64,000 nt of DNA from positions 310,001-374,000 of the forward strand of contig NZ_QLLO01000002.1 of assembly GCF_003259525.1 (NCBI RefSeq), written 5' to 3'. Numbering within the stretch: the stretch's first letter is position 1; every line of letters starts with the position of its first letter. The DNA comes from Olleya aquimaris (GTDB taxonomy: Bacteria > Bacteroidota > Bacteroidia > Flavobacteriales > Flavobacteriaceae). The notes beneath the pieces are model-generated. The model was not told where the DNA came from, searched no databases, and saw only the letters and a list, made by a program, of their open reading frames with translations. Both the position numbers and the translations under genes were made by a program. Positions 10,860 to 26,131 of the stretch are shown in pieces.

Positions 10860-12164
10860 CTACCCAACCGCTTCCTTATAAACCTTTAAACAACGTTCTC
10901 TAGCTTCTTTGTGGTCTACTATAGGCTCTGGATAGTTTGATGTTTTGTATTCTGGAACCCACTGTTTGATGTACTTATGGTCTTTATCAAACTTGTCTAT
11001 TTGTGTAGTAGGATTAAAGATTCTAAAATATGGTGAAGCATCTACACCAGAACCAGCAACCCATTGCCAGTTTCCAACATTTGAAGCCATATCATAATCA
11101 TGCAGTTTTTCAGCAAAATAAGCTTCTCCCCATCGCCAATCAATTAATAAGTGTTTACATAAAAAACTACCCACTAACATACGCACACGATTGTGCATAA
11201 ACCCTGTTTGGTTAAGTTGTCGCATACCTGCATCTACAAGAGGGTAACCTGTTTTTCCTTCGCACCACGCTTTAAATTCGGTTTCGTTGTTACGCCAATC
11301 TATACGGTCGTATTTAGCTTTAAACGCTTCCTCTTTGGTGTGTGGAAAATGCCATAAGATCTGCATAAAAAACTCACGCCAAATTAGCTCTTGCCAAAAG
11401 ATTTCATTTTTTTCAGCTATAGCTTTTTTTACCATTTTTCGGATACTAACTGTTCCAAATCGTAAATGTGGTCCTAACCTAGACGTGTTGTCTTTAGCAG
11501 GAAAATTTCTAGTCGCTTCGTACTCTTGAATTAATGTAGGTGTAACAGTATAATCTTTAATCTGTTGAGATGATGTTTTAAATCCCATATCAGATAAACT
11601 TACATTAGGTAATCTGGTGTGTTCTATAAGGTTATCCAGATAAGAGTTGGTGTAATAAATTTCTAGATCGTGAGATTTAAATTTCTCTTTCCAAACACGC
11701 ATATAAGGTGTGTAGACTACATAAGGGTCACCATCTTTTTTTACGACTTCATCTTTTTCAAAAATAACTTGGTCTTTATAGGTCTTAAACTCAATATTAT
11801 GGTCTTCTAATAACGATTTGATAGAGTTATCTCGTTCTGTAGCGTAAGGTTCATAATCATGATTTGTAAACACAGTATTAATCTGGTAATCGTCAATTAG
11901 TTGTTTAAATGTGTTTTTTGGCGTACCATAAAACATCGCTAAACTACTGTTGTGCTGGTCTTGTAGTGTGTTACGCATGTCTTGAAGCGTTTCAAAAATA
12001 AAGGTAACACGAGCATCGTCTTCTGGTAATTTATCTAATATCTCTTTATCAAAAAAAAATATGGGTAACACTGGGTAATCAGATTTTAAAGCCTTGTAAA
12101 AGCCAAGATTATCATCTAATCTTAAATCGCGTCTAAACCAGAATATGTTTACTTGTTTTTTCAA
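10860..12164 (-). CDS. phrB: Deoxyribodipyrimidine photolyase, class I CPD type
   Basis: 434 residues. The enzyme repairs cyclobutane pyrimidine dimers using blue light, with FADH- and an antenna chromophore. NIFWFRRDLRLDDNLGF begins the antenna alpha/beta domain; the FAD domain shows SRLGPHLRFGTVSIRKM, FFMQILWHFPH, GKTGYPLVDAGMRQLNQTGFMHNRVRM and NWQWVAGSGVDASPYFRIFNP, the diagnostic class I CPD signature. The start is TTG (12164-12162), because the conserved N-terminus begins at residue 2 and no ATG is available. It is the last gene of the photoprotection island; a half-match (AATGTTTAA, plus strand, 12174-12182) to the shared element lies just upstream, but the other block is absent. Confidence 0.94.
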   Translation of the reverse strand: MKKQVNIFWFRRDLRLDDNLGFYKALKSDYPVLPIFFFDKEILDKLPEDDARVTFIFETLQDMRNTLQDQHNSSLAMFYGTPKNTFKQLIDDYQINTVFTNHDYEPYATERDNSIKSLLEDHNIEFKTYKDQVIFEKDEVVKKDGDPYVVYTPYMRVWKEKFKSHDLEIYYTNSYLDNLIEHTRLPNVSLSDMGFKTSSQQIKDYTVTPTLIQEYEATRNFPAKDNTSRLGPHLRFGTVSIRKMVKKAIAEKNEIFWQELIWREFFMQILWHFPHTKEEAFKAKYDRIDWRNNETEFKAWCEGKTGYPLVDAGMRQLNQTGFMHNRVRMLVGSFLCKHLLIDWRWGEAYFAEKLHDYDMASNVGNWQWVAGSGVDASPYFRIFNPTTQIDKFDKDHKYIKQWVPEYKTSNYPEPIVDHKEARERCLKVYKEAVG

Positions 12165-12254
12165 ATTAGTTGGAATGTTTAAAGTATTAAAGTTAATAAA
12201 GTTTTATTTGATAATAAGTTATAAAGTTCTAGACTACGCTTGAATAGACAAGAG

Positions 12255-12722
12255 TTATTTTTCATATTTACCAAACAGTTCTTCAAGCTTTTTAGTTCTG
12301 TAATTAAAGATTTCTTCTAATTTAGGTTTTACCAGAATAGGATGTACCAATTGCCCTAAAATACCCAAAGGAATTTTATAGTCTATAATATCCTCCATCT
12401 CTACACCACCTTCAATGTCTTTAATAAAATGCTTATGATGCCATAAGGCATATGGTCCAAAACGTTGCTCGTCTACAAAATATTCGCCTTCTTTGGTATG
12501 TGTAATTTCTGTAACCCATTTGGTTTTTATACCTAACACAGGTGTAACAATGTATTGTATGATTTGCCCAGCAAACATTGGTCTGTCTGCACCAGATAGA
12601 ATATTAAAACCCATATAATCTGGTGTGATAGTTTTAAGATTTTTTGGGTCTGATAAAAACTTCCAAGCTTCTGCTTTGGTTATTGGTAAGTTTTGTTTTT
12701 TATGTAATCTGTAAATTTTCAT
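12255..12722 (-). CDS. SRPBCC family protein (ligand-binding helix-grip fold)
   Basis: 155 residues. The start IYRLHKKQNLPITKAEAWKFLSDPKNLKTITPDYMGF and the later YFVDEQRFGPYALWHHKHFI are typical of SRPBCC proteins that lie next to photolyases and carotenoid or SDR genes (the type often fused to TIGR01777 epimerases). No catalytic function is known. It lies 36 bases downstream of tspO and 90 bases upstream of phrB on the same strand, so it belongs to the photoprotection island. A lipid or pigment ligand is a guess. Confidence 0.82.
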   Translation of the reverse strand: MKIYRLHKKQNLPITKAEAWKFLSDPKNLKTITPDYMGFNILSGADRPMFAGQIIQYIVTPVLGIKTKWVTEITHTKEGEYFVDEQRFGPYALWHHKHFIKDIEGGVEMEDIIDYKIPLGILGQLVHPILVKPKLEEIFNYRTKKLEELFGKYEK

Positions 12723-12758
12723 AATTCATTTTTTAATTTCCGCTTAAGTGAAAAATTT

Positions 12759-13220
12759 CTAATTATTAAATAGAATATAGGCATTAAGTGAAGTAGCTAT
12801 TAAAAGCCACACCATGTATGGAAGTAGCAGATAGCTTACATTTTTTATGACTTTTAAATTACTGAAGAAAAAAGTAAAAATAACAACGGTTAAAGCAGAT
12901 ATGACTACCAAACCTAAAGCTATTTGATGCTGATTGAAAAACACATAATTCCAAATGACATTTAAAAACACTTGAAAAGTAAAAGCTAATCTAAGTTTTA
13001 CGGAATCTGCTTTTTGAAATAAATAAACTAAATAAACTGAAAAACATATCATTATGGTTGTCCAAGCCACACCAAAGACCCAACCTGGAGGTGTCCATGG
13101 TGCTTGATTTAGGTTTGTGTACCAATTAGATTGTGGTCCATTGTCCATAAGCCAGCTTCCAAATGCCAATCCACCAAAATTAATGACTAAAAAAAGTAAT
13201 AGAGGTTTTAATAATTTCAT
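12759..13220 (-). CDS. tspO: TspO/MBR family tryptophan-rich membrane protein
   Basis: 153 residues with five predicted membrane segments. The signature SNWYTNLNQAPWTPPGWVFGVAWTTIM is the diagnostic TspO loop, and FFNQHQIALGLV plus the Trp/Asn-rich FLNVIWNYVFF are conserved. TspO binds porphyrins and has been linked to porphyrin photo-oxidation and stress responses in bacteria, which fits the light-response neighbours. Its start overlaps the glutathione peroxidase stop by one base, implying translational coupling. Confidence 0.93.
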   Translation of the reverse strand: MKLLKPLLLFLVINFGGLAFGSWLMDNGPQSNWYTNLNQAPWTPPGWVFGVAWTTIMICFSVYLVYLFQKADSVKLRLAFTFQVFLNVIWNYVFFNQHQIALGLVVISALTVVIFTFFFSNLKVIKNVSYLLLPYMVWLLIATSLNAYILFNN

Positions 13221-13753
13221 TATAAATATTTTGTGATTTTTAAACTGTTTGGATTAGTCATTGAGTAGAAATAATCTATCAATTGACCTTCTGGTCCAAC
13301 TAAATATTTTTGAAAATTCCATTTAACTTTTGAATTGCTGACTCCGTTTTTTTGCTTCTGGGTTAACCATGTATATAGAGGATGCTGCTTATTGCCTTTT
13401 ACATCTATTTTTTGAGTAATTAAAAACGATACACCATAATTAACTTGACAAAATTCTTCTATAGCATTGGCATCTCCTGGTTCTTGATTTCCGAATTGAT
13501 TACAAGGTACACCAATGATCTGAAGTTTGTCTTTATACGCTTCTTGTAGTTGTTGTAAGTCTTTGTATTGTGGTGTAAAACCACATTTTGAAGCGACATT
13601 TACAAACAATATATGTTTGCCTTTAAAGCTATTTAAGTCTATAGGTTTGCCTTGTAAACTATTGATTTTGATATCAAAAATAGAAGTAGGTTTGATGGTA
13701 TCAATATCTGATTTTGACAATAGGGTAGCAGCAAATGCTTTAAATGGGTTCAT
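13220..13753 (-). CDS. Glutathione peroxidase family thiol peroxidase
   Basis: 177 residues with the family landmarks NVASKCGFTPQYKDLQ (peroxidatic Cys), GVPCNQFGNQEPG (with the second Cys and Gln) and VKWNFQKYLVGPEG (catalytic Trp-Asn). Bacterial members of this kind use Cys and are usually reduced by thioredoxin rather than glutathione. No Sec codon is present. It removes lipid or hydrogen peroxides and suits an operon that meets singlet oxygen and UV stress. The upstream SDR gene ends four bases away and tspO overlaps downstream. Confidence 0.93.
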   Translation of the reverse strand: MNPFKAFAATLLSKSDIDTIKPTSIFDIKINSLQGKPIDLNSFKGKHILFVNVASKCGFTPQYKDLQQLQEAYKDKLQIIGVPCNQFGNQEPGDANAIEEFCQVNYGVSFLITQKIDVKGNKQHPLYTWLTQKQKNGVSNSKVKWNFQKYLVGPEGQLIDYFYSMTNPNSLKITKYL

Positions 13754-13757
13754 AATC

Positions 13758-14441
13758 TTATATTTTAAAACTTACAATTCCGCAATCCATTTCAAAAATT
13801 TGTCCTGAAATAGAAGCAGCTTTAGTGGATGTTAAAAATGCTGCCATATCTGCGACTTCCTGCGGATTTAAAAACTTTTTAAGGGGATGACGTTCAGTCA
13901 TATTTTCAACCATCTTCTCATTACGAAGTAGCTTTGAAGCCAATTCTGTATCTGTCACAGTTGGTGCTATAGCGTTTATCCTAACGGTTGGTGCTAATTC
14001 GGCTCCAACAGATTTAACTAAACCTTCAACAGCGCTTTTAGAAGCAGCAACACTTGCATGAAAAGGCATTCCTAATTTAGAAGCAACTGTACTAAATAAT
14101 ACAATAGACGGGTTTTGACCTTTTTTAAGCGGATCTATATATTTTTGTATTGCTTTTACTGCGCCAAGTACATTAATTTCAAAATCATCTCTAAAATCGT
14201 CTAATTTTAAACGTCCAATAGGTTTTAAATTAATACTTCCTGGACAATAAATTAAAGTATCTATGTGTTCTATATCTGGTAAATCTTCGGTTAAAACATC
14301 ACAAGAATGGTGAGTTAAATTTTCATGAGACATCTCAGGAGCAGAACGACTAATATTGGTAACTTTGTGTGTGTTTAGAAAGGTTTCCGTAATGGCTTTA
14401 CCGATACCTTTACTACCTCCAACAATAACTAAATGTTTCAT
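13758..14441 (-). CDS. SDR-family oxidoreductase lacking the catalytic Tyr
   Basis: 227 residues. VIVGGSKGIGKAI is the NAD(P) glycine motif, LIYCPGSI takes the place of the NNAG motif, and FSTVAS holds the catalytic Ser region. In the YxxxK site the sequence reads VAASK, with Val131 where Tyr is expected and Lys135 retained; the preceding FHAS might supply a His. The C-terminus (INAIAPTVTDTELASKLL, ISGQIFEMDCGIVS) is intact, so this looks like a natural variant group rather than a broken gene. It heads SDR-GPx-TspO, just after a terminator hairpin (14465-14511). The substrate is unknown. Confidence 0.85.
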   Translation of the reverse strand: MKHLVIVGGSKGIGKAITETFLNTHKVTNISRSAPEMSHENLTHHSCDVLTEDLPDIEHIDTLIYCPGSINLKPIGRLKLDDFRDDFEINVLGAVKAIQKYIDPLKKGQNPSIVLFSTVASKLGMPFHASVAASKSAVEGLVKSVGAELAPTVRINAIAPTVTDTELASKLLRNEKMVENMTERHPLKKFLNPQEVADMAAFLTSTKAASISGQIFEMDCGIVSFKI

Positions 14442-14464
14442 TTTTTTTTGGTTTTTAGGTATAA

Positions 14465-14511
14465 AAAAAGCGGTACTACACAGTTTTATGCGCCAAATAG
14501 TACCACTTTTT
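14465..14511 (-). terminator. Terminator after the folE-unknown operon
   Basis: On the minus strand AAAAAGTGGTACTA pairs with TAGTACCGCTTTTT (one G-U), with a 19-base loop and a T-run. It lies 32 bases after the stop of the 74-residue gene and 24 bases before the SDR start, so it splits the island into two units, perhaps with read-through. Confidence 0.7.
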
Positions 14512-14542
14512 ATAAGTGTTTATGTAATTTTTCTTTTTTTGT

Positions 14543-14767
14543 TTATGCTGCAGATGGTCTACCTTTTAGACGCTTTTCAATTTTTTGCTTGATTACCGTT
14601 AGGCGTTTCATTAGGTCCATTAATTCTTTATCTTTATTTTCTTTATAAAGTTCATTAACTCCTAAGATTAAATCTTTTACTTCTCTTGCAGCTATAATCC
14701 TGTCGCTAGTGGTTACAAATTTGTGTTTTCTGTCTGCAAACTCTAATGCTTTTTCTACAATACTCAT
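14543..14767 (-). CDS. Uncharacterised small helical protein in folE operon
   Basis: 74 residues, not recognised. The sequence is highly charged and probably all-helical (LEFADRKHKFVTTSDRIIAAREVKDLILGVNELYKENKDKELMDLMKRLTVIKQKIEKRLKGRP), with heptad-like hydrophobic spacing near the C-terminus and a basic end. No signal peptide, Cys or membrane segment. It starts four bases after the folE stop and is followed by a terminator, so it is very likely co-transcribed with folE. The close spacing and intact frame support a real gene. Confidence 0.7.
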   Translation of the reverse strand: MSIVEKALEFADRKHKFVTTSDRIIAAREVKDLILGVNELYKENKDKELMDLMKRLTVIKQKIEKRLKGRPSAA

Positions 14768-14771
14768 AATC

Positions 14772-15467
14772 TTACTCTTTTAAATAATTCTGTAATTCGG
14801 CTATTTTCTGTGGTGTATTAAATTGTCCACCATAGAAGGTTGTCACTGTTGCAGAAGATTCGTCTTTAATGCCTCGTGACGATACACATAAGTGCTTAGC
14901 ATCAATAATTACCGCAACATCGTCTGTTTGTAAAGTTGCTTTTAGGTCTTCTGCAATTTGATTTGTTAAGCGCTCTTGTACCTGAGGACGTTTAGCATAA
15001 TACTGTACAATTCTGTTTAATTTTGATAAACCTATAACTTTTCCAGAAGAAATATAGGCTACGTGAGCTTTACCTATAATGGGCACAAAGTGATGCTCAC
15101 AGTTGGAGTAGAAAGTAATGTTTTTCTCCACCAACATTTGATTGTATTGGTATTTGTTGTCAAATAACGCAATTTTTGGCTTATTTTGAGGGTTTAATCC
15201 AGAAAATATTTCATCAATATACATTTTAGCTACTCTATTTGGAGTTCCTTTAAGAGAATCATCTGTTAAATCCAATCCCATTACTTGCATAATTTCTTCA
15301 AATAAAATAGCAATTCTTTCTTTTTTTTCAATATCAGAAAGCTTGAAAGCATCTGCTCTCATAGGCGTTTCTAAACCAGTATAGAGGTGGTCATCTCCAA
15401 TCTCTTCTACATCAAATCCGTTTAAATTGTGACCGTTTGTTTTTACTAATGGTTGTCTCTTGTTCAT
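14772..15467 (-). CDS. folE: GTP cyclohydrolase I
   Basis: 231 residues. It converts GTP to dihydroneopterin triphosphate, the entry to folate and pterin synthesis. FYSNCEHHFVPIIGKAHVAYI contains the zinc Cys and catalytic His residues, GLSKLNRIVQYYAKRPQVQERLT is the signature helix, and AKHLCVSSRGIKDESS provides the second zinc Cys and substrate contacts. An N-terminal extension of ~30 residues is typical. Its location in a light-response island suggests supply of reduced folate or pterin antenna cofactors for photolyases; that link is inference. It lies 57 bases after TIGR03643 in the operon headed by the shared element at 16261. Confidence 0.96.
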   Translation of the reverse strand: MNKRQPLVKTNGHNLNGFDVEEIGDDHLYTGLETPMRADAFKLSDIEKKERIAILFEEIMQVMGLDLTDDSLKGTPNRVAKMYIDEIFSGLNPQNKPKIALFDNKYQYNQMLVEKNITFYSNCEHHFVPIIGKAHVAYISSGKVIGLSKLNRIVQYYAKRPQVQERLTNQIAEDLKATLQTDDVAVIIDAKHLCVSSRGIKDESSATVTTFYGGQFNTPQKIAELQNYLKE

Positions 15468-15524: not shown

Positions 15525-15803
15525 CTAACGTTTAGATATCTTATTGTGTGTAATTTGTTTTTGCCTAGTACACTTAAAGCGTCCTTCTTCAAATGGTCTT
15601 TTTTTACTGTGTTTAGTACTTCTTCCTTGTATTCTTGCTCTCCATAACCTAAAACTACTGGGTTTCATTTCGCGTCGCATGAGTTGTATAACTTCTTGCT
15701 CTTTAATACCAAATTGAAATGTTATAGCATCAAATGGAGTGCGATCTTCCCAAGCCATTTCAATAATGCGGTCTAATTCTTCAATTGTAAAATTTGTTGT
15801 CAT
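15525..15803 (-). CDS. TIGR03643/DUF2805 family protein
   Basis: 92 residues. TIEELDRIIEMAWEDRTPFDAITFQFGIKEQEVIQLMRREMKPSSFRLWRARIQGRSTKHSKKR is the conserved family core, which looks like a helix-turn-helix followed by a basic segment; this family commonly neighbours cryptochromes and photolyases in marine bacteria. The C-terminus is strongly basic. Function is unknown; DNA or RNA binding is plausible. Its ATG directly follows the stop codon (TAA-ATG) of the upstream unknown gene, so the two are tightly coupled. Confidence 0.85.
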   Translation of the reverse strand: MTTNFTIEELDRIIEMAWEDRTPFDAITFQFGIKEQEVIQLMRREMKPSSFRLWRARIQGRSTKHSKKRPFEEGRFKCTRQKQITHNKISKR

Positions 15804-16232
15804 TTATAGTGGTGAAAAATTAAACTGTTCGTCATATTTTACTTTTTCGTTTAATAGCTTATCAAAAAAACTTTTATTCTCTTTGAACGTTTTATTGTTT
15901 CTAAAATGAATAAATTTTCCGTTTGAATGAATACTAGTTCCATTAACTTTATAAATGACTAATTGATAATACGGAATAACCCAAGCAAAGTTTTTTAAGC
16001 CTTTAATGATATGAATGATGATCCCTCTTGGTCGTAACTCTATATTACCATAATTAATATCATCTATTGTGTTCAAAATTGATGCCATATTTGGACTTAC
16101 TTCATCAATTATCATTCTTTTAGATCCAACTCCTTTCATTCTTACACTTTGTAAAAAGCTAAAAGGTTTACCTACCAAATCGGTGATAAGATTTTTATTT
16201 TCCTTACTTGTATGTGTTGTATTTAAAAGCAA
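15804..16232 (-). CDS. Uncharacterised protein, first gene of the folE operon
   Basis: 142 residues, not recognised. A soluble alpha/beta pattern is seen: GKPFSFLQSVRMKGVGSKRMIIDEVSPNM, then GNIELRPRGIIIHIIKGLKNFAWVIPYYQLVIYK, then a basic NGKFIHFRNNKTFKENKSFFDKLLNEK. The middle strand-rich part ending in YYQLVIYK resembles compact PH-like or membrane-associated folds, but this is a guess. The start is a TTG (16232-16230), 18 bases after the -7 box TACATTTG and 29 bases from the shared element at 16261-16302. The stop abuts the TIGR03643 start. It is thus a probable member of the light/UV regulon. Confidence 0.72.
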   Translation of the reverse strand: MLLNTTHTSKENKNLITDLVGKPFSFLQSVRMKGVGSKRMIIDEVSPNMASILNTIDDINYGNIELRPRGIIIHIIKGLKNFAWVIPYYQLVIYKVNGTSIHSNGKFIHFRNNKTFKENKSFFDKLLNEKVKYDEQFNFSPL

Positions 16233-16249: not shown

Positions 16250-16302
16250 CAAATGTACAAAATGTTTAACCTTTTATAATTAATCTTAAACAAAATTTAA
16301 CA
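16250..16302 (-). promoter_or_regulatory. Shared bipartite element A with promoter (folE operon)
   Basis: Plus-strand sequence AATGTTTAAC (16261-16270), 15 bases, TTAAACAAAATTTAACA (16286-16302). The same two blocks with the same 15-base gap occur at 23476-23517. On the minus strand a -7 box TACATTTG (16257-16250) lies three bases beyond the AATG block; no TTG occurs at the -33 place, suggesting an activator-dependent promoter. The blocks contain repeated GTTAAA/TTTAAC half-sites. The binding protein is unknown. Confidence 0.7.
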
Positions 16303-16329: not shown

Positions 16330-17862
16330 TTAGAAATTATCTGGATTTTTAATAATTTGTTGAGCTCTGTCTTTTATGCTTTTAAGTTGTTCATTATCCA
16401 TTTTATCCAACAAGCTATACATCATTCCCATTCTAAAATTATTGCTTAGTTGTGGTCGTTTGTCATCTAAAAAGTTCCAATACAAACTATTAAATGGGCA
16501 TGCTTTTTCACCTAATTTATCTTTTTTGTTATAATAGCAATTATCACAATAGTTACTCATTTTACTAATGTAGCTTCCGCTAGACACATAGGGCTTGGTG
16601 GCTATTTTACCACCATCTGCAAACTGGCTCATTCCTCGTGTATTAGGTAGTTGTACCCACTCGATCGCATCAACATAAATACCCAAATACCAAGCATCTA
16701 CATCATCTGGGTTAATTTGTGCTAATAAGGCAAAATTACCAGTTACCATCAACCGTTGGATATGGTGTGCATAACCATTATCTAAACTATTAGTAATAGC
16801 TTGTTTTAGGCAATTCATTTTGGTGTTTCCGGTCCAGAAAAATTCTGGTAACTTATTGGTGTTTTCTAGATGATTTAATGATTTGTATTCTGGCATCAAC
16901 GCCCAATACATACCACGCATATACTCACGCCAACCCAATATTTGTCTTATAAAACCTTCGACTTGAGAAATATTTATGTCTTCACCATGTTTACGCCAAT
17001 AATTTAAAACAGTATCGACTACGTTTTTGGGTGAAACAATTTTTAGATTTAAAGCAAAAGATAACCTAGAGTGAAATAAATACACTTGGTCAGTATGCAT
17101 GGCATCTTGATAATCTCCAAAATGTATGAGAAGCTCTTCACAAAAATACTTAAGTTGGTCAAGCGCTTGAGTCCTATTTATAGGATAACTAAAGGTTTTA
17201 GTGTCAAACTTACCAATGGTTTTGATATCTTCTGTTTCCAACATCTTAACAATATCTTCAACATCGTTTTTATAGTATTTATAAGTTGGTATGTCGTGCT
17301 CGCCTTTCCATTTGTTACGGTTGCTTTTATCGTAATTCCATTTGCCTCCTTCGGGTTGTCCAGCTACCATTAAAATGTCGTGTTTTTTTCGCATGTCACG
17401 ATAAAAATTCTCCATTAAAAATTGTTTTTTCCCCTTGAAGAATGTTGCTAAATCTTGTCGTTTGGTATAGAAATGTTCTGTTGAATAGACATCGGTTTCA
17501 ATATCTAAATCTTTACAAAAAGTTGATAGTTGCTGGTCTAATCGATACTCGTCTGGTAATTGGTATTCAAATTTTTGAATGTTGTGTTCTTTAATTAATA
17601 AACTTAAGTTTTCTGTTAGATTTTGCGTGTTTTTATTATCGTCTAACTTATAATAAACAACTTTACATTCTTGCTTTTCTAGGTGTTGCGCAAAATCGCG
17701 CATCGCAGCAAAAAAGCCAATGATTTTTTGGATGTGATGTGTGACATAGTCGGTTTCTTGACGCATTTCAAATAGACAATACACGTAATTATCTTGATTG
17801 TTTTTATACCAACTGTGTTTGCTGTTTAGTTGGTCTCCTAATATGAGTCTTAGTGTTTTCAA
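16330..17862 (-). CDS. FeS-type bacterial cryptochrome / (6-4) photolyase
   Basis: 510 residues, the usual length of the FeS-BCP group (Agrobacterium PhrB, Rhodobacter CryB). The start LRLILGDQLNSKHSW and the core VEGFIRQILGWREYMRGMYWAL, NGYAHHIQRLMVTGNFALLAQI are diagnostic. Four Cys at residues 351, 439, 442 and 455 sit one residue from the iron-sulfur ligands of Agrobacterium PhrB. The family repairs (6-4) photoproducts and uses a ribityllumazine antenna. It is the last gene of the TetR-ABC1-cryptochrome operon, 53 bases after cryDASH; a GC-rich repeat fills part of this gap. Confidence 0.94.
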   Translation of the reverse strand: MKTLRLILGDQLNSKHSWYKNNQDNYVYCLFEMRQETDYVTHHIQKIIGFFAAMRDFAQHLEKQECKVVYYKLDDNKNTQNLTENLSLLIKEHNIQKFEYQLPDEYRLDQQLSTFCKDLDIETDVYSTEHFYTKRQDLATFFKGKKQFLMENFYRDMRKKHDILMVAGQPEGGKWNYDKSNRNKWKGEHDIPTYKYYKNDVEDIVKMLETEDIKTIGKFDTKTFSYPINRTQALDQLKYFCEELLIHFGDYQDAMHTDQVYLFHSRLSFALNLKIVSPKNVVDTVLNYWRKHGEDINISQVEGFIRQILGWREYMRGMYWALMPEYKSLNHLENTNKLPEFFWTGNTKMNCLKQAITNSLDNGYAHHIQRLMVTGNFALLAQINPDDVDAWYLGIYVDAIEWVQLPNTRGMSQFADGGKIATKPYVSSGSYISKMSNYCDNCYYNKKDKLGEKACPFNSLYWNFLDDKRPQLSNNFRMGMMYSLLDKMDNEQLKSIKDRAQQIIKNPDNF

Positions 17863-17883
17863 TGGTTTTTTAGATTAGTGTTG

Positions 17884-17908
17884 TCTTCGACTGCGCTCAG
17901 ACTGACAA
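17884..17908. repeat. Short GC-rich intergenic repeat of the flavobacterial type
   Basis: TCTTCGACTGCGCTCAGACTGACAA-like sequence between cryDASH and the FeS photolyase, far richer in GC than its surroundings. Near-identical short words (CTTCGACTGCGCTCAGACTGAC) are known to me as dispersed intergenic repeats in flavobacterial genomes. Only one copy was found in this window. Confidence 0.5.
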
Positions 17909-17915
17909 AGTTTGA

Positions 17916-19229
17916 TTAGAATAAGGTGTTTTGAAGCCATAAGCGTTGGTAATTTCCTTTTGCATCATAACGCTCAGCTTGAAGTTTGACGTTAAATTTT
18001 CGGTCTCTTGGATCGTTGCCAACTCCAGCTACATATAGCCAATTACCATAGTTGCTATGTACATCGTAATCGATTAAAAGACTTTCAAAATAACTTGCTC
18101 CAATGCGCCAATCTAACTCTAGTTCTTTTGCAAAATAGCTGGCTACGTTTTGTCGTCCTCTATTACTCATCCAACCTGTTTTTTTTAATTCTATCATATT
18201 GGCATCTACAAAAGGCTCACCAGTAGTACCATTTATCCAGTTGTCGATTTTATTTTTATTGGTACTCCAGTCATACTCTTTATTTAAAATTCCTTCTAAT
18301 TTAAAAATTTGATTTCCATGTTTCATCGAAACATACTTGAAGTAGTCGCGCCAAATAAGCTCAAAAATGAGCCAATAGGTCGAGTCGTTTTTAACGTGTT
18401 CTTTTTCAAAATGTTTGACTTCCCAATAAATACGTTTTGCAGAAAGACTTCCATTAGCTAACCACGTTGAAAATTTGCTACTAAAGTCTATACCAATTAA
18501 ACCGTTACGTGTTTTTTTGTAAACACTTAATTTTTTGGTTTCAAAAAAATAATGATTTAAGCGTTTTAAGGCTTCAGTTTCTCCGCCTTTAAAAGGGAAA
18601 GCTGAATTTGCATGTGTATCAAACTCACAAAAACCTAAGTCTTTTAAGGAAGGAATTTGTGTATTATTTTTGATATTAAAGTTGTCTTTTTCTTCTGAAA
18701 TAGTTTCAGTTTCAGGTCTTACTTTGCTGTATTTTTCAACCTTTTTTCTAAAGTTAGTAAAGACTTGCGGAATATTTTCAACATCAATATTGATATCTTT
18801 TGGATGATATAAAAACTGATTGTAAGTGTCATGTATTTGAATGGTTTCTGGGAATATCTTTTTGACTTTAGTTGTAATATCTACTTCCTCTTGTGTCCAT
18901 TCTTTTTGTAAATAAATCGCATCAAAATTAAAGGTGTCATTTAATTTTGAGATACAAGTTTCAGTATAATCAAAATAGGTGAAAAGTTGAATGTTTAGTT
19001 TGGCTAATTGTGTTTTTAAATCTGTAATGGTTTCGATTAAAAATTGAGCTCTGAATTTTTCAGTCTTTTTAAAACCAAAAGGAGTTGTTTCAAATTGTCT
19101 TGGGTCAAAACAATAGATTGCAACCACGTGTTGACTGTTTAATATAGAATTTGTGATGGATGCATTATCATGGGTACGTAAGTCGTTTCGGAACCAGATT
19201 AAGCTATTTTTGTTTTGTTTCGTCTGCAT
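17916..19229 (-). CDS. Cryptochrome DASH
   Basis: 437 residues. [17 protein letters not shown] starts the antenna domain; [33 protein letters not shown] is characteristic of the DASH group, as are [40 protein letters not shown] and [27 protein letters not shown], and the closing [20 protein letters not shown] proteins bind FAD and MTHF, repair CPDs in single-stranded DNA and may signal blue light. The start codon lies within the end of the DUF2256 gene (31-base overlap). Confidence 0.95.
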
Positions 19230-19351
19230 TTTTCGCTACAATATTTTACGTCCTCCCAATTCTTTTCCCATTTTTTGCGCCAAGTAAATGATAAACCACA
19301 AGTGTTACAGGTTTTAGTGGGTAGATGTTGTTTTTTAATAGACTTAGGCAT
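19199..19351 (-). CDS. DUF2256 family zinc-ribbon microprotein
   Basis: 50 residues, beginning [20 protein letters not shown] and continuing with the family signature [24 protein letters not shown]. Four Cys in CxxC...CxxxC arrangement suggest one zinc site. The gene overlaps the end of the DUF2867 reductase gene by 8 bases and the start of cryDASH by 31 bases, so it is easily missed. DUF2256 proteins occur next to, or fused with, cryptochromes and photolyases in many bacteria, so a role linked to the cryptochrome is likely; the activity is unknown. Translation and frame were read directly from the sequence. Confidence 0.88.
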
Positions 19352-20768
19352 TAGCCAGTTTTTTAATCATCCCATTAAAAATTAAACCATGAAATGGTAA
19401 CACACTGTACCAATATAATCTTCCCCAAAGTCCACGCGGTCTAAAGGTTGCGCGTTGATATACTTTTCCTTTAGCAACTTGAAATTCTAACCAAGCTTCT
19501 CCAGGTAGTTTCATTTCTGCAAAAAGTATCAGTCGTTTTTCATCCTTATCTGCTAACAACACACGCCAAAAATCTAAAGCATCTCCTGTTTGAATATCTG
19601 TTTTATTGGTTCGTCCACGTCGTAATCCAATACCACCAACCAATTTATCTAAAAAGCCTCTAATTTTCCATAAGGTAGTGCCATAATACCAACCGTTTTC
19701 GCCTCCAATAGCCCAAATTTTATCAAGAGTGCGTTGTTCGTCTAAAACATGACGTTCTTTAATATCTTTAAAGCAACCATATTTGGGCACTTTTAAGTAT
19801 TTTGTTGAGGCTTGTTTTTTATAGCGACTGTTAATAAAGGCGTCTTTCCAGCTTGAAATAATCTCGTTACCTTCAATTTTTACAAAAGCAAATTTTACCG
19901 CTTCTTTGTAAGACATGGGATTGATTTCTAAAAGTGAGTTAATGTTACTTTTTTGACCAATAATTTCAATTCCCATACTATTTACTAAGGATGAAGCTAA
20001 TTTGTATGAGGTCGAAGTCACAAAATATAACCAATAGCTTGATAATTTTGGTGTCATTACTGGTACTGTCAAAATGTAGCGTTTTAACTTCCTTACTTCT
20101 GCAAATTGTAGTAACATTTGCTTGTAGGTAAGTACTTCTGGACCAAAAATATCATGAGAGGTATTGTATAATTCTGTCTTACCTAATCCCTTGGTTAAAA
20201 AAGCTAATACATCTCGCACACCAATGGGTTGCGTTTTAGTATTTAACCATTTTGGAGCAATCATAACAGGTAGTTTTTCGACTAAATCTCTTATAATTTC
20301 AAAACTTGCACTACCAGATCCTACAATGATTCCTGCTTTAAAAACAGTTAAGGCATACTGATCTGATTTTAAAGTTTCTTCAACGTTTTTTCTGGATAAT
20401 AAGTGTTTGGATAATTTGGTATCGTTAGTAATTCCGCTAAGGTAAATAACTTGCTTAACGTCTGTAGTTTCGATATAATTTTTAAAATTGATAGCACAAT
20501 CTTCTTCCATTTTATGGAATTGATCTACCGAGTTTGACATGGAGTGTATCAAATAGTAAGCAGCATCAATGTCTTTAGGAATATTTTTAAGTGTTTCAGG
20601 CTTTAAAAAATCGGCTTCAATAACATGAAGATTTTCTTCATCTGAATACTTTTTTTCAGTACGTAACTTACCGCGTACAGCACAAACTATGGTATGACCT
20701 TGCTCTAATAGTAACGGAATAATACGCTTACCAATGTAGCCTGTTGCTCCTGTTACTAGTATTCTCAT
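19344..20768 (-). CDS. NAD(P)-binding SDR with DUF2867 domain
   Basis: 474 residues. The first ~300 residues are an atypical extended SDR ([56 protein letters not shown]), and the last ~160 are a DUF2867 domain ([62 protein letters not shown]). The two-domain arrangement is common next to cryptochromes and SRPBCC proteins. DUF2867 resembles SRPBCC-like ligand-binding folds. A lipid or quinone substrate is possible but unproven. Its stop codon overlaps the DUF2256 start. Confidence 0.88.
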
Positions 20769-20813
20769 AGTTTTATTTTTTGTGTAAAGTGAAATTTATT
20801 TTTGTTCATTTCG

Positions 20814-20834
20814 CTTACTGCTTACTGCTTACTG
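20814..20834. repeat. Three tandem 7-base repeats over a stop codon
   Basis: Three exact copies of CTTACTG (plus strand). On the minus strand this is the end of the flavin reductase gene: the TAA stop (20831-20829) lies in the first unit. Slippage would alter the C-terminus only slightly, as every unit carries a TAA. Confidence 0.6.
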
Positions 20835-21461
20835 AGCACTATCAACTTGCTTCGGTCTTTGATACGCTAACCGTTTTTCTAGGTTTGGTATTGTATAACC
20901 ATCCAATCCATTTATTGAAGCAATTTTAGCTTTTGATAAATTGATAAATCCATCATCTTCTAAAATATCTTTGTTTATGTGTAAGCCTTTAATCTCTCCA
21001 ATGACTAATATAGTATCATTTTCTTTAATAGGATATTCTGTCACAAATTGCATTTCTAATTGCATAGGAGATGCTTTTACAAATGGTGCAAAGCAATCTT
21101 TTTTATATTCCGAAACTAAATTAGTCATATCAAACTCTGAAATACTCTTTTCATATTTAGCAGAGGTATGATGCGCATCTTCAAAATTATCCAAATGGAT
21201 CGCATTTAACGTGTAAACACCAGTTTCTTTAATGTTTTCATAGGTATGACGCATAACTGATGTTGGTCTACAAAAAAAGCCAAGTAGAGGAGGACTGCTA
21301 CCAATGTGTGTCACAGAGCTAAATACAGCTACATTTTCTTGACCAGATTTAGATTTAGTGCCGATTAAATTAGCACTTTTAAAACCAGAACAACTATTTA
21401 TGAGGTTAATCTTATATAGATGTTGTAATGCGTCAATATCTTTTCTGCTGAAATAAGGCAT
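20829..21461 (-). CDS. Flavin reductase family (FMN-binding split-barrel) protein
   Basis: 210 residues. NLIGTKSKSGQENVAVFSSVTHIGSSPPLLGFFCRPTS is the FMN-binding flavin-reductase-like core, followed by GVYTLNAIHLDNFEDAHHTSAKY, with the conserved N and HHTS segment of the family, and LQFVTEYPIKENDTILVIGEI. The position between an ABC1 kinase and a DUF2867 reductase, upstream of two FAD photolyases, suggests supply of reduced flavin or an oxidoreductase in the same response (inference). It begins next to the ABC1 stop (21461/21462). Confidence 0.87.
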   Translation of the reverse strand: MPYFSRKDIDALQHLYKINLINSCSGFKSANLIGTKSKSGQENVAVFSSVTHIGSSPPLLGFFCRPTSVMRHTYENIKETGVYTLNAIHLDNFEDAHHTSAKYEKSISEFDMTNLVSEYKKDCFAPFVKASPMQLEMQFVTEYPIKENDTILVIGEIKGLHINKDILEDDGFINLSKAKIASINGLDGYTIPNLEKRLAYQRPKQVDSAQ

Positions 21462-22772
21462 TTATAAATTTATGAAATTATTTATTTTAACGTCTTTTGC
21501 TTTTAAATCAAACATCAAATTATACAATCCAAAAAATGTTCTGTTGATATAGATAAAATGTTTAGACCCACGATTACCATTCATTTTACGTAGTTCTGTA
21601 CTTTTACTGTAGCGTTGTCCCATTTCTGAAATAGCATCAAAAAAATCAGGGTTTGAAAAATCAAATGATTCTTCATGAAAGGGTTTAGTAAATAAGCTTA
21701 ATAACTCATGAAACATGTCCGAGAAAAAAACTAATTCTTCTTTGCTATCATCTTTACGTAATATTTCAAGCTCGTACATTTTCTCTGTAAACGCTTTAGG
21801 ATTATCAATAACTTCTTTTTTTGCTAATTCAAAATAGGGTACATAAAAGTCGTTAGGTATTTCTTTCATACAGCCAAAATCTAAAGCTATTAAATCGCCT
21901 TCTTTAGAAATTAAAAAGTTTCCTGGATGTGGATCTGCATGTACTTTTTTAAGCACGTGCATTTGGTACATGTAAAAATCCCAAAGGGCTTGACCTAGTT
22001 TGTTGGCTTTATCTTGATCTGTGTTGTAGGCTGTAAATTCAGACAAATGTTCGCCTTCCATCCAATCCATGGTAATGATGCGTTCTGAGGATAATTCCTC
22101 ATAATACTCAGGGAATTTTAGATTAGGAATATGCTTACAAGCCTCAACTATAGCTTGACTTTGTTTAATTTCCAGTAGATAATTAGTTTCTTCAACTAGT
22201 TTGTGTTCTACTTCTTTAAAATATTTGTCAGAATCTTTTCCTTTAATATTAAACATTTTAATGGCAATGGGTTTTACCATAGCCAAATCTGAAGCAATGC
22301 TTTCTGCGACTCCAGGGTATTGAATTTTCACAGCAAGTTTTTTCCCATCCTTTTCTGCTACATGCACTTGACCAATACTGGCTGCATTTACAGAATTAAG
22401 ATTGAAAGAGTCGTAAATTTGGCTAGGTAGTTTCCCAAAATATTGTTTAAATGTTTTACTAACTAAAGGCGCAGATAGTGGTGGAACCGAGAATTGAGCT
22501 AATGAGAATTTCTCAACATAAGCTTGTGGTAAAATGCTTTTTTCCATGCTTAGCATTTGAGCCACTTTAAGTGCGCTTCCTTTTAGTTGCTTTAAGCCAT
22601 CATAGATGTCTTCTGCATTATTCTCGTCAAGTTTGGCTTTGGCTTCTGCTTCAGTTTTAGTGATTTTGTCGCCATAGTATTTAAGGTAATTGACACCTAC
22701 TTTAGCTCCAGTAGACACTAATTTTGTAGCACGTGCAATTTTTGAAGTTGGTATTTTATCTATTGTTTTCAA
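21462..22772 (-). CDS. ABC1/UbiB/AarF atypical kinase
   Basis: 436 residues. LKQLKGSALKVAQMLSMEKSILPQAYVEKF contains the KxGQ-like (KVAQMLS) N-terminal motif, SAASIGQVHVAE appears as NAASIGQVHVAEKDGKKLAVKIQYPG with the Ala-rich loop and the Lys, HADPHPGNFLI is the catalytic region and ALDFGCMKEI the DFG. The family acts on quinone or other isoprenoid lipid metabolism. No membrane tail is evident. The gene is 16 bases downstream of the TetR gene; this pairing and the photolyases further on indicate a stress-induced role. Confidence 0.93.
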   Translation of the reverse strand: MKTIDKIPTSKIARATKLVSTGAKVGVNYLKYYGDKITKTEAEAKAKLDENNAEDIYDGLKQLKGSALKVAQMLSMEKSILPQAYVEKFSLAQFSVPPLSAPLVSKTFKQYFGKLPSQIYDSFNLNSVNAASIGQVHVAEKDGKKLAVKIQYPGVAESIASDLAMVKPIAIKMFNIKGKDSDKYFKEVEHKLVEETNYLLEIKQSQAIVEACKHIPNLKFPEYYEELSSERIITMDWMEGEHLSEFTAYNTDQDKANKLGQALWDFYMYQMHVLKKVHADPHPGNFLISKEGDLIALDFGCMKEIPNDFYVPYFELAKKEVIDNPKAFTEKMYELEILRKDDSKEELVFFSDMFHELLSLFTKPFHEESFDFSNPDFFDAISEMGQRYSKSTELRKMNGNRGSKHFIYINRTFFGLYNLMFDLKAKDVKINNFINL

Positions 22773-22788
22773 TAGTTTGTGTGTTAAG

Positions 22789-23448
22789 TTAATTCATCTG
22801 AATTTTTTCTTTGAAGATGAATTTTCCAAAGTCAATTAGGCTTTTTAAAGGCGCAACATTTAATACATCAAAACTGGTATTTACAGATTTTTCAATAAAA
22901 ATGTCAGTTTTCTGAAAAGACGAAGAGGTGTCGTCCATCCAAAATTTAATGGTCAGTAACAATTGCAACCAAGCAGTTTCTTTAAGACCTCTATTTTGAA
23001 TTCGTTCTAACTGCTCTTGCTTGACATCAATCAATTCAATGTTTAAATTTTGTACATAATTTGTAAAGCTTGATTTTAATTCTGATAAGGTTTTGAAACT
23101 TTTAAGGCTGTTTTTATGATTGTGCAAAGCATACAACACATAGCTTCTATTGGCAGTTAGATTTTCAAAAAAAGTAAAGTAAAAACTTAATAATTTATTT
23201 CTTGGATTGAATGAATTATAGTCTTCACTAGCTTCTAACGCTTGATGAGTATTATCAAAAAAAGCTTTAAACACGTTTTTTTCTACTGCATCAAAACTTC
23301 CAAAATGCTCATAAAATTTACTTTCTTCAAAGTTATAGTGTTTTGCAAAAGCATAAACAGATTTAGGTTGATTGTTATGCTCCAAAACATAATCCATGTA
23401 AAATGAAATAATATCTTGGTTGTTAATGTTTTTCTTTTTTGCCATCAT
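22789..23448 (-). CDS. TetR-family transcriptional regulator, head of the cryptochrome operon
   Basis: 219 residues from the preferred start. The N-terminal helix-turn-helix is seen in SVYAFAKHYNFEESKFYEHFGSFDAVEKNVFKAFF; the remainder is a helical ligand/dimer domain (LLSFYFTFFENLTANRSYVLYALHNHK). An in-frame ATG at 23466 would add MSLNFH, but it lies within the -7-like box TATATTTA (23473-23466); starting at 23448 gives a 28-base distance to the shared element, matching the 29 bases at element A. It may regulate itself and both operons; this is not shown. The neighbouring ABC1 gene is a frequent partner of this type. Confidence 0.85.
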   Translation of the reverse strand: MMAKKKNINNQDIISFYMDYVLEHNNQPKSVYAFAKHYNFEESKFYEHFGSFDAVEKNVFKAFFDNTHQALEASEDYNSFNPRNKLLSFYFTFFENLTANRSYVLYALHNHKNSLKSFKTLSELKSSFTNYVQNLNIELIDVKQEQLERIQNRGLKETAWLQLLLTIKFWMDDTSSSFQKTDIFIEKSVNTSFDVLNVAPLKSLIDFGKFIFKEKIQMN

Positions 23449-23465: not shown

Positions 23466-23517
23466 TAAATATACTAATGTTTAACTATTATAGATAAAAG
23501 TTAAACAAAATTTAACA
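23466..23517 (-). promoter_or_regulatory. Shared bipartite element B with promoter (TetR-cryptochrome operon)
   Basis: Plus-strand AATGTTTAAC (23476-23485), 15 bases, TTAAACAAAATTTAACA (23501-23517); both blocks are identical to element A with identical spacing. A -7-like TATATTTA (23473-23466, minus) lies two bases beyond the AATG block. The far block covers the stop codon of the aquaporin gene (23512-23514), so the arsenic operon ends inside this control region. Confidence 0.7.
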
Positions 23518-24180
23518 AGACTTTGTGTTTAGCTTAGAAGAATTAAATACATTGTAAGAAAATATTGCAGAAATAGCACCTAAAATATGAGCTGTAATGT
23601 AAAACCAAACATGATTAAAATGACCAGTAAAAAGTGCGGGAGCAAGGGTTCTAACAGGATTCATAGACGCTTTGGTTATTGGTCCAGCAAACATGGCTTC
23701 CAGTAAAATAACACCTCCAACAGCTATACCTGCCATAACACCTACTTCTTTACTACCCGTTGAAATATTAATGATTACAATCATTAAAATAAAAGTTAAA
23801 ATAAACTCTAAAATGGCAGCTTTATAATCTGGATAACCTGTCATTGGTGTGCTTTCTCCTAAAAATTGACTATCAGGAAATAAAAAACTTAACAAAGCTA
23901 TAGCCATGACACCTCCTAAAAACTGAGCTAAGAAATAGCTAGGGACTTTTTTCCAAGAAAATTTTTTTGCAACTGCAAATCCAATAGTAACAGCTGGATT
24001 AAAATGTGCACCAGAAGTCGTTCCAAACGCATATATCATTGCCATAACTATCAATCCCCAAACAGAAGCAACACCAACGTGAGTGATGCTTCCATTAGTA
24101 ATTTCATTTATGGTCATGGCTCCACAACCACAAAATATCATAGCAAATGTACCAATAGCTTCAGCGTAATATTTTTTCAT
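23512..24180 (-). CDS. Aquaporin/MIP channel of the arsenic operon (AqpS-like)
   Basis: 222 residues, six membrane segments. The first channel motif is HFNPAVT (Asn61); the second is KASMNPVRTLAPAL, i.e. NPV instead of NPA (174-176), followed by the selectivity Arg177. It takes the place of an ArsB or Acr3 pump in this ars operon, as in Sinorhizobium aqpS, where arsenite made inside the cell leaves through the channel down its gradient. It is the last gene of the operon, its start adjoining the arsenate reductase stop (24180/24181). Substrate assignment rests on context. Confidence 0.88.
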   Translation of the reverse strand: MKKYYAEAIGTFAMIFCGCGAMTINEITNGSITHVGVASVWGLIVMAMIYAFGTTSGAHFNPAVTIGFAVAKKFSWKKVPSYFLAQFLGGVMAIALLSFLFPDSQFLGESTPMTGYPDYKAAILEFILTFILMIVIINISTGSKEVGVMAGIAVGGVILLEAMFAGPITKASMNPVRTLAPALFTGHFNHVWFYITAHILGAISAIFSYNVFNSSKLNTKSC

Positions 24181-24795
24181 TTATTTAGTAATTACCTGTT
24201 GGAACACATATTTCATTTCGGTAGCAATTTGAGTTGAGCGTTCTAAGTATTTTTCGTCTTGCAACTCTGTATTATCAAATGCTTTTGGGTCCTCATACGT
24301 TACAGGTATTCGTTGTTCTGCACCTGCAATAAAAGGACAACCTTGATCTGCACTTGAACAAGTCATTATAGCTGCAAACTCTGATTTAGGATTAAAATCA
24401 TTATCAAATGTTTTAGAAAATGCTATTATAGGATGCAAGTTATCTGAATATTTTATGCTGTACACAGGGTTTTTTCCTTCGGACAAAGCTGTAATTTTAA
24501 ATCCTGTTTTAATTAATGTTTCTCCTACTTTTGGAAACATAGCTGTAGCTTCTGTACCTCCAGAATAGGTGGTTACATTTTTAACCGAGTAATAATGAGC
24601 AATAACCTGTGCCCAAACTTGCGATAAATGACTTCGTCTAGAATTATGTGTACAAATTAAGTTTAGGTTTATAGGTTGATTGTTATTAGATTTAGTTGTT
24701 ATAAAATCGATTAGAGGTTGTAAAATAGCTTGTCTTTCTTTTGAGATAGTATCTATTTTAAGGGTATCTATATAATCTTTAATATTTTGAAACAT
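24181..24795 (-). CDS. arsC: Arsenate reductase, low-molecular-weight phosphatase family
   Basis: 204 residues. LICTHNSRRSHLSQVWAQ gives the CX5R phosphatase loop with Cys48, and MTCSSADQGCPFI gives Cys146 and Cys153 spaced by six residues, the same spacing as Cys82/Cys89 of thioredoxin-linked Staphylococcus ArsC. An N-terminal ~40-residue helical extension is present. This supports As(V) to As(III) reduction via a Cys relay. The product arsenite would leave by the adjacent aquaporin. The gene is 14 bases after the acetyltransferase gene. Related flavobacterial proteins are often labelled only protein-tyrosine phosphatase. Confidence 0.88.
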   Translation of the reverse strand: MFQNIKDYIDTLKIDTISKERQAILQPLIDFITTKSNNNQPINLNLICTHNSRRSHLSQVWAQVIAHYYSVKNVTTYSGGTEATAMFPKVGETLIKTGFKITALSEGKNPVYSIKYSDNLHPIIAFSKTFDNDFNPKSEFAAIMTCSSADQGCPFIAGAEQRIPVTYEDPKAFDNTELQDEKYLERSTQIATEMKYVFQQVITK

Positions 24796-24809
24796 AAATG
24801 GTATGGTTT

Positions 24810-25298
24810 TTAAATGCCTATAATTTTACTTCGTCTTTCTAATAATATATTGTCTAGCCAAACACCATGTAATTGGCCAATTTTTTCTTTGTATCCTATA
24901 ATCCTAAATCCATTATTAGTGTGCAGTTTTAAACTTGCTGGATTTGCTCTCATTATACTGGATTGTAAGGACCAAATATTGTTTTGTTCGCTAATTTTAA
25001 TTAATTCTTTCATTAAAAAATCTCCAATATTTTGCCCTCTAAACGCGGTTGATACATAAATACTAACTTCTGCAACTCCAGAATACACACTTCGTTTTGA
25101 TGTTGCGCTTAATGCAGCCCAACCTAGATATAGATTATCTTTTAAAGCTACTATTCTTCCAAAAGGTAAGTGGTTTGCATCCCAATAATTCCAATCTGGA
25201 ATTTGGGTTTCAAAAGTAGCAACACCAGTTTCAATTCCTTCTTTATATATACGTTGTACTTCAGGAAAATTAGTTTGATTGATGCTTATGGTTTTCAT
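24810..25298 (-). CDS. GNAT acetyltransferase, ArsN1/phosphinothricin-acetyltransferase-like
   Basis: 162 residues from the ATG at 25298, which follows the DUF6428 stop by one base (TAA-C-ATG); an upstream in-frame start at 25343 lies inside DUF6428 and is less likely. IYKEGIETGVATFETQIPDWNYWDANHLPFGRIVAL, GWAALSATSKRSVYSGVAEVSIYV, FRGQNIGDFLMKELI (acetyl-CoA loop) and IGQLHGVWLDNILLERRS are the marks of the PAT family. In ars operons this family includes ArsN1, which acetylates the organoarsenical antibiotic arsinothricin. Context and sequence fit that, but PAT-like enzymes with other substrates look alike. Confidence 0.85.
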   Translation of the reverse strand: MKTISINQTNFPEVQRIYKEGIETGVATFETQIPDWNYWDANHLPFGRIVALKDNLYLGWAALSATSKRSVYSGVAEVSIYVSTAFRGQNIGDFLMKELIKISEQNNIWSLQSSIMRANPASLKLHTNNGFRIIGYKEKIGQLHGVWLDNILLERRSKIIGI

Positions 25299-25299
25299 G

Positions 25300-25770: not shown

Positions 25771-25801
25771 ATTGTTATGTTTTACTAGTTATAATGTACG
25801 T

Positions 25802-26131
25802 TTAGCAACACGAGTTGCTGTTTAAATCGTTATCAAAAAACGAATTAAGTAAGTCTTTCATTGCGCTCCAATTGTCTTTATGGATACAATAGCAAACACT
25901 AGTACCTTCTATGGTACCTTGAATAAGACCTAGATTTTTAAGTTCTTTTAAATGTTGAGATATTGTGGGTTGTGCTAATCCTATTTCTTCCACTAAATCA
26001 CCACATACACAAGCATTAATTTTGAATAAATGCTGAATTATAGCTACACGAGCAGGATGCCCTAAAGCTTTAGCAAAAAGTGCAATCTGGTTTTGAGAAT
26101 CTGTAAATTTTTCGGTTTTAATTAATCCCAT
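25802..26131 (-). CDS. arsR: ArsR/SmtB-family repressor
   Basis: 109 residues, winged helix. ALGHPARVAIIQHLFKINACVCGDLVEEIGLAQPTISQHLKELKNLGLIQG is the DNA-binding core; ACVCGDLV holds Cys41 and Cys43 at the place of the classical ELCVCDL metal site. Further Cys at 80 and 82 (VCYC) and the terminal CysCys pair may take part in sensing As(III)/Sb(III). It heads the five-gene operon; a palindrome at 26154-26169 lies 23 bases upstream of the start and is the likely operator. Release by arsenite is expected from the family. Confidence 0.93.
   Translation of the reverse strand: MGLIKTEKFTDSQNQIALFAKALGHPARVAIIQHLFKINACVCGDLVEEIGLAQPTISQHLKELKNLGLIQGTIEGTSVCYCIHKDNWSAMKDLLNSFFDNDLNSNSCC

Follow-up and report, generated by a model that had tools for sequence, protein, structure and literature searches.

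Two gene runs with photolyase genes lie on the minus strand of the window, by which we mean the whole stretch of 64,000 nucleotides of Olleya aquimaris DNA analyzed here, and each run is preceded by a copy of the same bipartite DNA element. We call these runs operons A and B, their limits having been drawn from strand and short gaps, and the features are as follows.

10860-14767, minus strand: rest of operon A, namely a small ORF, SDR, glutathione peroxidase, TspO/MBR, a 155-aa SRPBCC-like protein and a DNA photolyase
14772-15467, minus strand: folE, GTP cyclohydrolase I (family search)
15525-15803, minus strand: TIGR03643/DUF2805 protein (family search)
15804-16232, minus strand: gene 1 of operon A, 142-aa protein (no Pfam or NCBIfam match; orthologues known)
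16250-16257, minus strand: -7 box of operon A, TACATTTG, starting 35 bp from the first base of the operator in gene direction
16261-16302: copy A, operator plus third half-site (exact match)
16263-16292: operator core of copy A, TGTTTAAC-N14-CTTAAACA, one base off TGTTTAAY-N14-RTTAAACA
16296-16302, plus strand: third half-site of copy A, TTTAACA, 10 bp after the second half-site and containing TnnACA
16330-22772, minus strand: rest of operon B, namely ABC1 kinase-like, flavin reductase, NAD-binding plus DUF2867, a 50-aa ORF, cryptochrome DASH and DPRP photolyase-related protein
22789-23445, minus strand: gene 1 of operon B, TetR_C_23 protein (Pfam: TetR_C_23 only; start MAKKKN)
23466-23473, minus strand: -7 box of operon B, TATATTTA, read by eye, 34 bp from the first base of the operator
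23476-23517: copy B (exact match), the last 6 bases overlapping the 3' end of a MIP channel ORF
23478-23507: operator core of copy B, TGTTTAAC-N14-GTTAAACA, perfect consensus match
23511-23517, plus strand: third half-site of copy B, TTTAACA (from the sequence)

The 155-aa protein of operon A has neither a Pfam nor an NCBIfam match, and SRPBCC-like is the name that we assume for it; similarly, we take the TetR_C_23 protein of operon B to be COQ9-like. The gene of the latter adjoins that of the ABC1 kinase-like protein (window 21462-23445) inside the candidate light regulon, and these neighbours presumably resemble the COQ9-COQ8 pair. On the other side, the MIP channel ORF whose end is overlapped by copy B (23512-24180) has upstream of it, on the same strand (window 23512-26131), an ORF without a Pfam match, which we take to be arsenate-reductase-like, and an ArsR-family regulator; these genes may form an arsenic operon, whose transcription could continue into the photolyase operon.

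As originally predicted, AATGTTTAAC-N15-TTAAACAAAATTTAACA occurs exactly in both copies of the 64-kb window, with 27 of the 27 block bases and the length of the gap alike and the gap bases different. A mismatch scan of the whole window revealed no third place at up to three mismatches, the pattern appeared in none of 100 dinucleotide-preserving shuffles, and exact matches to the 17-base right block in the genome of the organism (2.95 Mb, 21 contigs) are the two window copies only. Between copy A and the TTG start at 16232, where orthologues have ATG, lie 28 bases, in accord with the predicted start distance of 29 bases; copy B is separated by 30 bases from the MAKKKN start of the first gene of operon B, which is the same in orthologues. 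The -7 box beside copy A was also predicted correctly, and the exact scan for TAnnTTTG gave no match at copy B, where TATATTTA is one base off. The TTG at the left of the element was considered as a -33 box and dropped, since its distance to the -7 box is too short in the crtI-type sites described below; this judgment uses the usual spacing of flavobacterial promoters.

The operator unit

Loci were collected through the TIGR03643 protein, as the best 80 of at least 575 relatives (among at least 593 stretches, in named genomes), and a further 30 came from the 68 TIGR03643-positive genomes among 120 of the same family. In many of the fetched Flavobacteriaceae loci, matches with up to six mismatches to the 42-mer recur before orthologous genes, so that the predicted conserved regulator site survives the objection that it might not be conserved in relatives. 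A profile from 76 of 103 rows (rows with no near gene start or a short flank were dropped, and both strands of a palindrome can enter) reads TTTTGTTTAAY-N14-RTTAAACAT followed by a TAnnTTTG-like box, and its gap shows no conserved G at the centre.

The spacing was counted in 166 protein-selected loci (1.71 Mb), which were fetched without use of the motif. TGTTTAA facing TTAAACA at a gap of 16 was found in 80 cases, which include repeats of the same stretch and correspond to 77 distinct contexts, and the 40 other gaps between 0 and 40 gave five cases in all; direct and everted orders of the half-sites occurred 0-2 times per gap. Because the gap of 16 far exceeds all other gaps and the direct and everted orders are this rare, the unit is a strict inverted repeat, TGTTTAAY-N14-RTTAAACA, of 30 bp and 22 bp from centre to centre. 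The 42-base element of the original prediction is accordingly replaced as a unit by the 30-bp palindrome; its two copies are real, but the TTTAACA tail is an optional third half-site. Indeed, T[TA]AACA at 10 bp beyond the second half-site is present in 17 of the 77 distinct sites and in both window copies. Copy A deviates from the palindrome by a single base, C at 16285.

The repeat core of CarH operators is TnnACA, and the known CarH operators consist of three or four tandem 11-bp direct repeats, according to the open text of PMC9304148 and PMC8156234. TnnACA is present in GTTAAACA, in TTTAACA and in the ATGAACA of litR. A tandem arrangement of 11-bp direct repeats was not found: the inverted order at gap 16 counts 80 cases, against 0-2 direct TTAAACA pairs per gap over gaps of 0-40, and among degenerate TnnACA tandems the scan covered the third half-site at 10 bp.

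Co-occurrence with a CarH-type protein

Genomes were scanned for exact TTGTTTAAY-N14-RTTAAACA, in which a palindromic site can count twice (strand counts). The motif occurs in 81 of 120 genomes of the family, with 317 strand counts versus nine for a reversed control, and in 51 of 149 genomes of a class-wide sample, where the reversed control gave a single count. Within the family, it is present in 79 of 87 genomes with a strong LitR (E about 1e-59 or better) and in two of 33 without one (Fisher 5.5e-19); the two are one of nine genomes with a distant LitR and one of 24 without LitR, of which four were scored negative by absence from the match table rather than listed individually. Class-wide, the motif is found in 51 of 87 LitR-positive and 0 of 62 LitR-negative genomes (Fisher 1.5e-16; 2.1e-15 without the own family), 42 of the 62 being counted as negative and not listed individually; all 51 motif-bearing genomes thus have LitR. 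These Fisher values overstate independence, since the genomes share ancestry. Eight of the 87 strong-LitR genomes of the family and 36 of the 87 LitR genomes class-wide have no exact site, and one assembly (G079; 81% complete, 610 contigs) has sites with LitR not found. Among TIGR03643-positive genomes without strong LitR, the exact motif is absent in seven of nine.

The genome of O. aquimaris has two MerR-type genes (PF13411). One of them encodes LitR, a 300-aa protein with MerR and B12-cap parts, on contig C8 directly before crtI-crtB-crtZ-crtY (phytoene-synthase, hydroxylase-like and lycopene-cyclase genes), where we take the hydroxylase-like gene to be crtZ. The N-terminal MerR helix-turn-helix (PF13411, 2.5e-14; PF00376, 4.2e-8) and the helical B12 cap with Wx9EH (PF02607, 5e-10) are present, and W143, E153 and H154 as well as E192, the axial H194 and G197 of the Rossmann part are conserved in 30 of 30 LitR sequences, while the Rossmann B12-binding domain was not reported in a Pfam search at 1e-3. 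The nearest solved relative by sequence is TtCarH (3whp, 5c8d; 3e-11). Also, a structural model of LitR (mean pLDDT 89.5) had TtCarH with DNA, 5c8e, as its first Foldseek match (E 1e-13, TM about 0.53-0.58, ~300 columns), and its full-chain TM-scores to 5c8e, 5c8d and 5c8f are modest (0.47-0.62). The best of nine NCBIfam models is the CarH equivalog NF052513 (E 7.7e-18), with 64.7 bits versus a cut-off of 400; judged by this score, LitR is thus a CarH-type protein and not a CarH equivalog.

The position of CarH His132 is Gln in 30 of 30 LitR and, class-wide, in 18 of 19 among the matches listed, the other being Leu. Of the light signature given as GxxW, EH, GxxH and GxxxP in the open text of PMC11796333, GxxW, EH and GxxxP are present in 30 of 30; in GxxH, the His is kept in 30 of 30 and the Gly position is Gly in one, Asn in 25, His in three and Ser in one. 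The DNA-binding region of LitR is nearly invariant, as is the operator. A MerR protein of the CarH/LitR type that carries a B12 domain is the likely binder of the site. The COQ9-like TetR_C_23 protein was also considered as the regulator and is not favoured, Pfam giving the TetR_C_23 domain alone.

Promoter geometry and target genes

In the best 30 litR matches, the left half-site (0-1 mismatch) stands at a fixed distance before the start in 29, L224 being the exception, and the right half-site is the litR start itself, ATGAACA in 28 and GTGAACA in one, which reads TnnACA. The litR site of O. aquimaris has three mismatches to the 18-letter consensus. LitR is hence predicted to be autoregulated through a site that overlaps its own start codon.

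Counting the operator from 0 to +29, TAnnTTTG begins at -6 in 25 of these 30 litR promoters; among the matches listed, it stands at +15 in 13 of 14 crtI and 8 of 23 fasciclin promoters, at +35 in nine of nine TIGR03643-run and 5 of 18 COQ9-like promoters, and at +40 in four of six SRPBCC-like promoters. In the remaining promoters, the exact scan gave no TAnnTTTG at these positions, the COQ9-like and fasciclin classes being positive only in the 5 of 18 and 8 of 23 above. In the +15 class the box is overlapped by the operator. At -6 it touches the operator start, and at +35 its first base lies 5 bp beyond the operator end. Overlap with the promoter, as at CarH operators, is thus seen for crtI and litR; in the TIGR03643 runs, what the operator overlaps is the sequence upstream of the -7 box. 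Since the three main -7 positions are 20-21 bp apart (two helical turns), they would keep helical phase. The original prediction had named no regulator and had left activator and repressor open; because the operator is placed over or next to the -7 box, the start region or the start codon, the arrangement favours a repressor. In crtI-type sites (L193, L201, L202, L213 and similar), the operator ends ~10 bases or less from the start codon with the -7 box inside, which suggests that crtI messages are very short-leader or leaderless.

For the target genes, 97 loci were examined (among the matches listed, duplicates merged by hand, plus one stretch of the own genome), giving 99 exact sites. None of the 99 lies inside an ORF of at least 150 aa, in line with the prediction of a regulator site and not of a dispersed repeat, and 64 of them precede fasciclin, COQ9-like, crtI or TIGR03643-run genes. 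The first genes among the matches listed are fasciclin (23), COQ9-like (18), crtI (14), the 142-aa gene of the TIGR03643 run (9), genes without a Pfam match that are presumably SRPBCC-like (6), litR (2) and others (27). Among these others are folE, the TIGR03643 gene, a pterin synthase gene, blh/proteorhodopsin, flavin reductase and CIA30, as well as a crtW-like gene (below the NCBIfam cut-off), sites beside htpG and several sites without a clear gene. In several loci of other flavobacteria (L095, L107, L112, L203 and others), htpG (HSP90) and the COQ9-like operon are transcribed divergently from either side of the operator, and htpG may come under its control as well.

In the genome of O. aquimaris, sites with 0-1 mismatch are at five distinct places, namely before the two window operons, before two fasciclin genes and in the proteorhodopsin/blh gap. 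The proposal that the folE/pterin operon and the photolyase operon form one regulon is therefore supported by the same operator before both, while its extent was underestimated, given the fasciclins and proteorhodopsin/blh. At up to two mismatches, 24+21 strand counts compare with 18+19 in the control; as these are not clearly above control, the two-mismatch sites, including one at superoxide dismutase (C1:12275), are only candidates.

Proteorhodopsin was followed in 26 loci; L270 was excluded, as were L272, which has an internal stop, and L273, which scores below the rhodopsin cut-off. The motif with up to two mismatches lies within 150 bases upstream in 8 of 18 LitR-positive cases, leaving 10 without, and in one of five from genomes called LitR-negative (G079, which has other sites too). 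Control of proteorhodopsin by this operator is thus likely in some lineages, O. aquimaris included, and not general. Outside the family, eight class-level loci were read, with sites before folE (L347), litR (L348), an SRPBCC-like gene (L343), ECF-type sigma genes (L344-L346) and two secreted-protein-like genes (L341, L342). In the three sigma loci, which are from other Bacteroidia, the operator stands ~34-42 bases before the ECF-type sigma genes (assigned by Pfam), and in their genomes (G265, G147 and G224) litR adjoins an ECF-type sigma gene by coordinates. In some other families, regulation by LitR may run through a sigma factor instead of being direct.

A proposed light-released repressor and its alternatives

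We consider it quite probable that both copies are operators of a CarH/LitR-type regulator, with repression in the dark by the adenosyl-B12 form, release by light and joint expression of photoprotection and light-use genes. The operator, its spacing and conservation, the targets, the tie to LitR and the overlap with or nearness to promoter elements were computed here. In the dark, adenosyl-B12 LitR would bind the inverted repeat TGTTTAAY-N14-RTTAAACA and keep RNA polymerase from the promoters of litR and of the photolyase/folE, COQ9-like/cryptochrome, carotenoid, fasciclin and proteorhodopsin/blh genes; on illumination the B12 cofactor would be cleaved and LitR would let go, so that photoprotection and light-use genes would be expressed together. 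Physical binding, dependence on B12 and on light, and repression as the direction are what we infer; release by light, in particular, is proposed because Wx9EH and the axial His are invariant. Since His132 is replaced by Gln in all 30 LitR, and TtCarH H132A stays mostly tetrameric in light according to the open text of PMC10442372 (disassembly had been observed in an earlier report), the way in which LitR is released must differ from that of CarH, or release may be absent. The open text of PMC11796333 describes the Gln-bearing photocobilin SasPcob as light-responsive and the residue at the His132 position as variable among light-responsive relatives.

The same Gln would also suit a LitR that binds the operator but is switched by B12 or stress, or acts as an activator, and is not a light-released repressor. 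No -33 TTG accompanies copy A, as originally noted, and a conserved mid-gap G is missing from the profile (76 of 103 rows), so that an activator might be needed; CarA of Myxococcus xanthus, moreover, works independently of B12 as far as the open text of PMC8156234 describes it. Of the B12-light signature, however, W, EH, the axial His and GxxxP do not vary in 30 of 30, SasPcob responds to light with its Gln (open text of PMC11796333), many targets are light-related, and an activator would hardly sit over the crtI -7 box or the litR start region and start codon. We consider such a switch or activator unlikely.

Co-occurrence alone cannot name the binder, and another DNA-binding protein of the same regulon might bind while LitR merely travels along; the second MerR protein of the genome (L018), which is like the MliR described in the open text of PMC9478572, would be at hand. 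Such a bystander LitR is nevertheless very improbable, given the fusion of the site to the litR start in 29 of the best 30 matches, the TnnACA half-site as in CarH (PMC9304148, open text), the absence of the exact motif in seven of the nine TIGR03643-positive genomes without strong LitR, the near-invariance of the LitR DNA-binding region in parallel with the operator and the COQ9-like protein having only a TetR_C_23 domain in Pfam. A dispersed repeat or chance AT-rich similarity is barely conceivable: the sites are AT-rich and similar short palindromes occur at contig ends (L024-L027), but the gap bases differ between the window copies, and a repeat was rejected on the right block occurring only twice in the genome, the 317 versus nine counts in 120 genomes and the 0 of 99 sites in a long ORF among the matches listed; the strict gap of 16 between the half-sites contradicts it as well. 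The stretch at the contig ends (contigs C7, C8, C15 and C17) is a repeated palindrome-like TGTTTAAATAAACTCCTAGAG... with a loose likeness to the motif, and may mark a multi-copy element.

The proposed light-released repressor resembles CarH of Thermus thermophilus and CarH (LitR) of Bacillus megaterium in its MerR and B12-binding parts, the nearest solved structure, the TnnACA half-site, an operator at the promoter and adjacent carotenoid genes. Unlike the tandem 11-bp repeats of CarH, the operator here is an inverted pair with a strict N14 and sometimes a direct half-site 10 bp on; Gln replaces His132, LitR scores far below the NCBIfam CarH equivalog cut-off, and the regulon reaches photolyases, folE, fasciclins and, in some genomes, proteorhodopsin, in contrast to the CarH cases in the open text of the papers cited. 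The site of CarA in M. xanthus/Cystobacter likewise consists of a pair of inverted repeats, of which one extends over the -35 region (PMC9304148, open text), but that operator is ~55 bp long, takes two dimers, serves a carotenoid operon with the CarS antirepressor, and differs in sequence and spacing. CtMerR and photocobilins such as SasPcob are likewise B12 photoreceptors without His at 132, although photocobilins also carry biliverdin (PMC11796333, open text); the text describes neither an operator nor a regulon for these proteins. In terms of geometry, sensor residue and breadth of targets, therefore, the system is, on the sequences compared, unlike the CarH cases described in the accessible parts of these sources.

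In Bacteroidota, Chryseobacterium lacus is similar in that its crt genes go up in light, but its authors identify neither a regulator nor a site and describe the mechanism as unknown (PMC7064467, open text). MliR of Bizionia is a 109-aa MerR protein (PMC9478572, open text) and resembles the second MerR protein of O. aquimaris, not LitR. In the open-access literature searched, no description of a LitR/CarH operator or regulon in Bacteroidota was found. Photolyase-cluster genes are enriched in proteorhodopsin-bearing marine Flavobacteriia, with no control named in the open part of PMC5932025.

For the class Bacteroidia as a whole, we lean slightly towards a Gln-type CarH without the bis-His light state that would directly repress, in the dark, a sunlight regulon of photolyases, pterin, carotenoids and, in some, proteorhodopsin plus the retinal enzyme, through an inverted-repeat operator with three main settings of the -7 box, 20-21 bp from one to the next; the target of this CarH in some other families seems to be an ECF sigma factor encoded beside litR. 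For sunlight induction in non-photosynthetic marine bacteria, these results name a candidate regulator with an exactly defined target of 30 bp and list the genes that could be turned on, which serve DNA repair, pigment formation and, in some bacteria, proteorhodopsin. Photochemistry and optogenetics could profit from a CarH-type variant that lacks His132 and has another operator geometry. DUF2805/TIGR03643, the pair of COQ9-like and ABC1 proteins and the fasciclin lipoproteins are hereby tied to a predicted light response.
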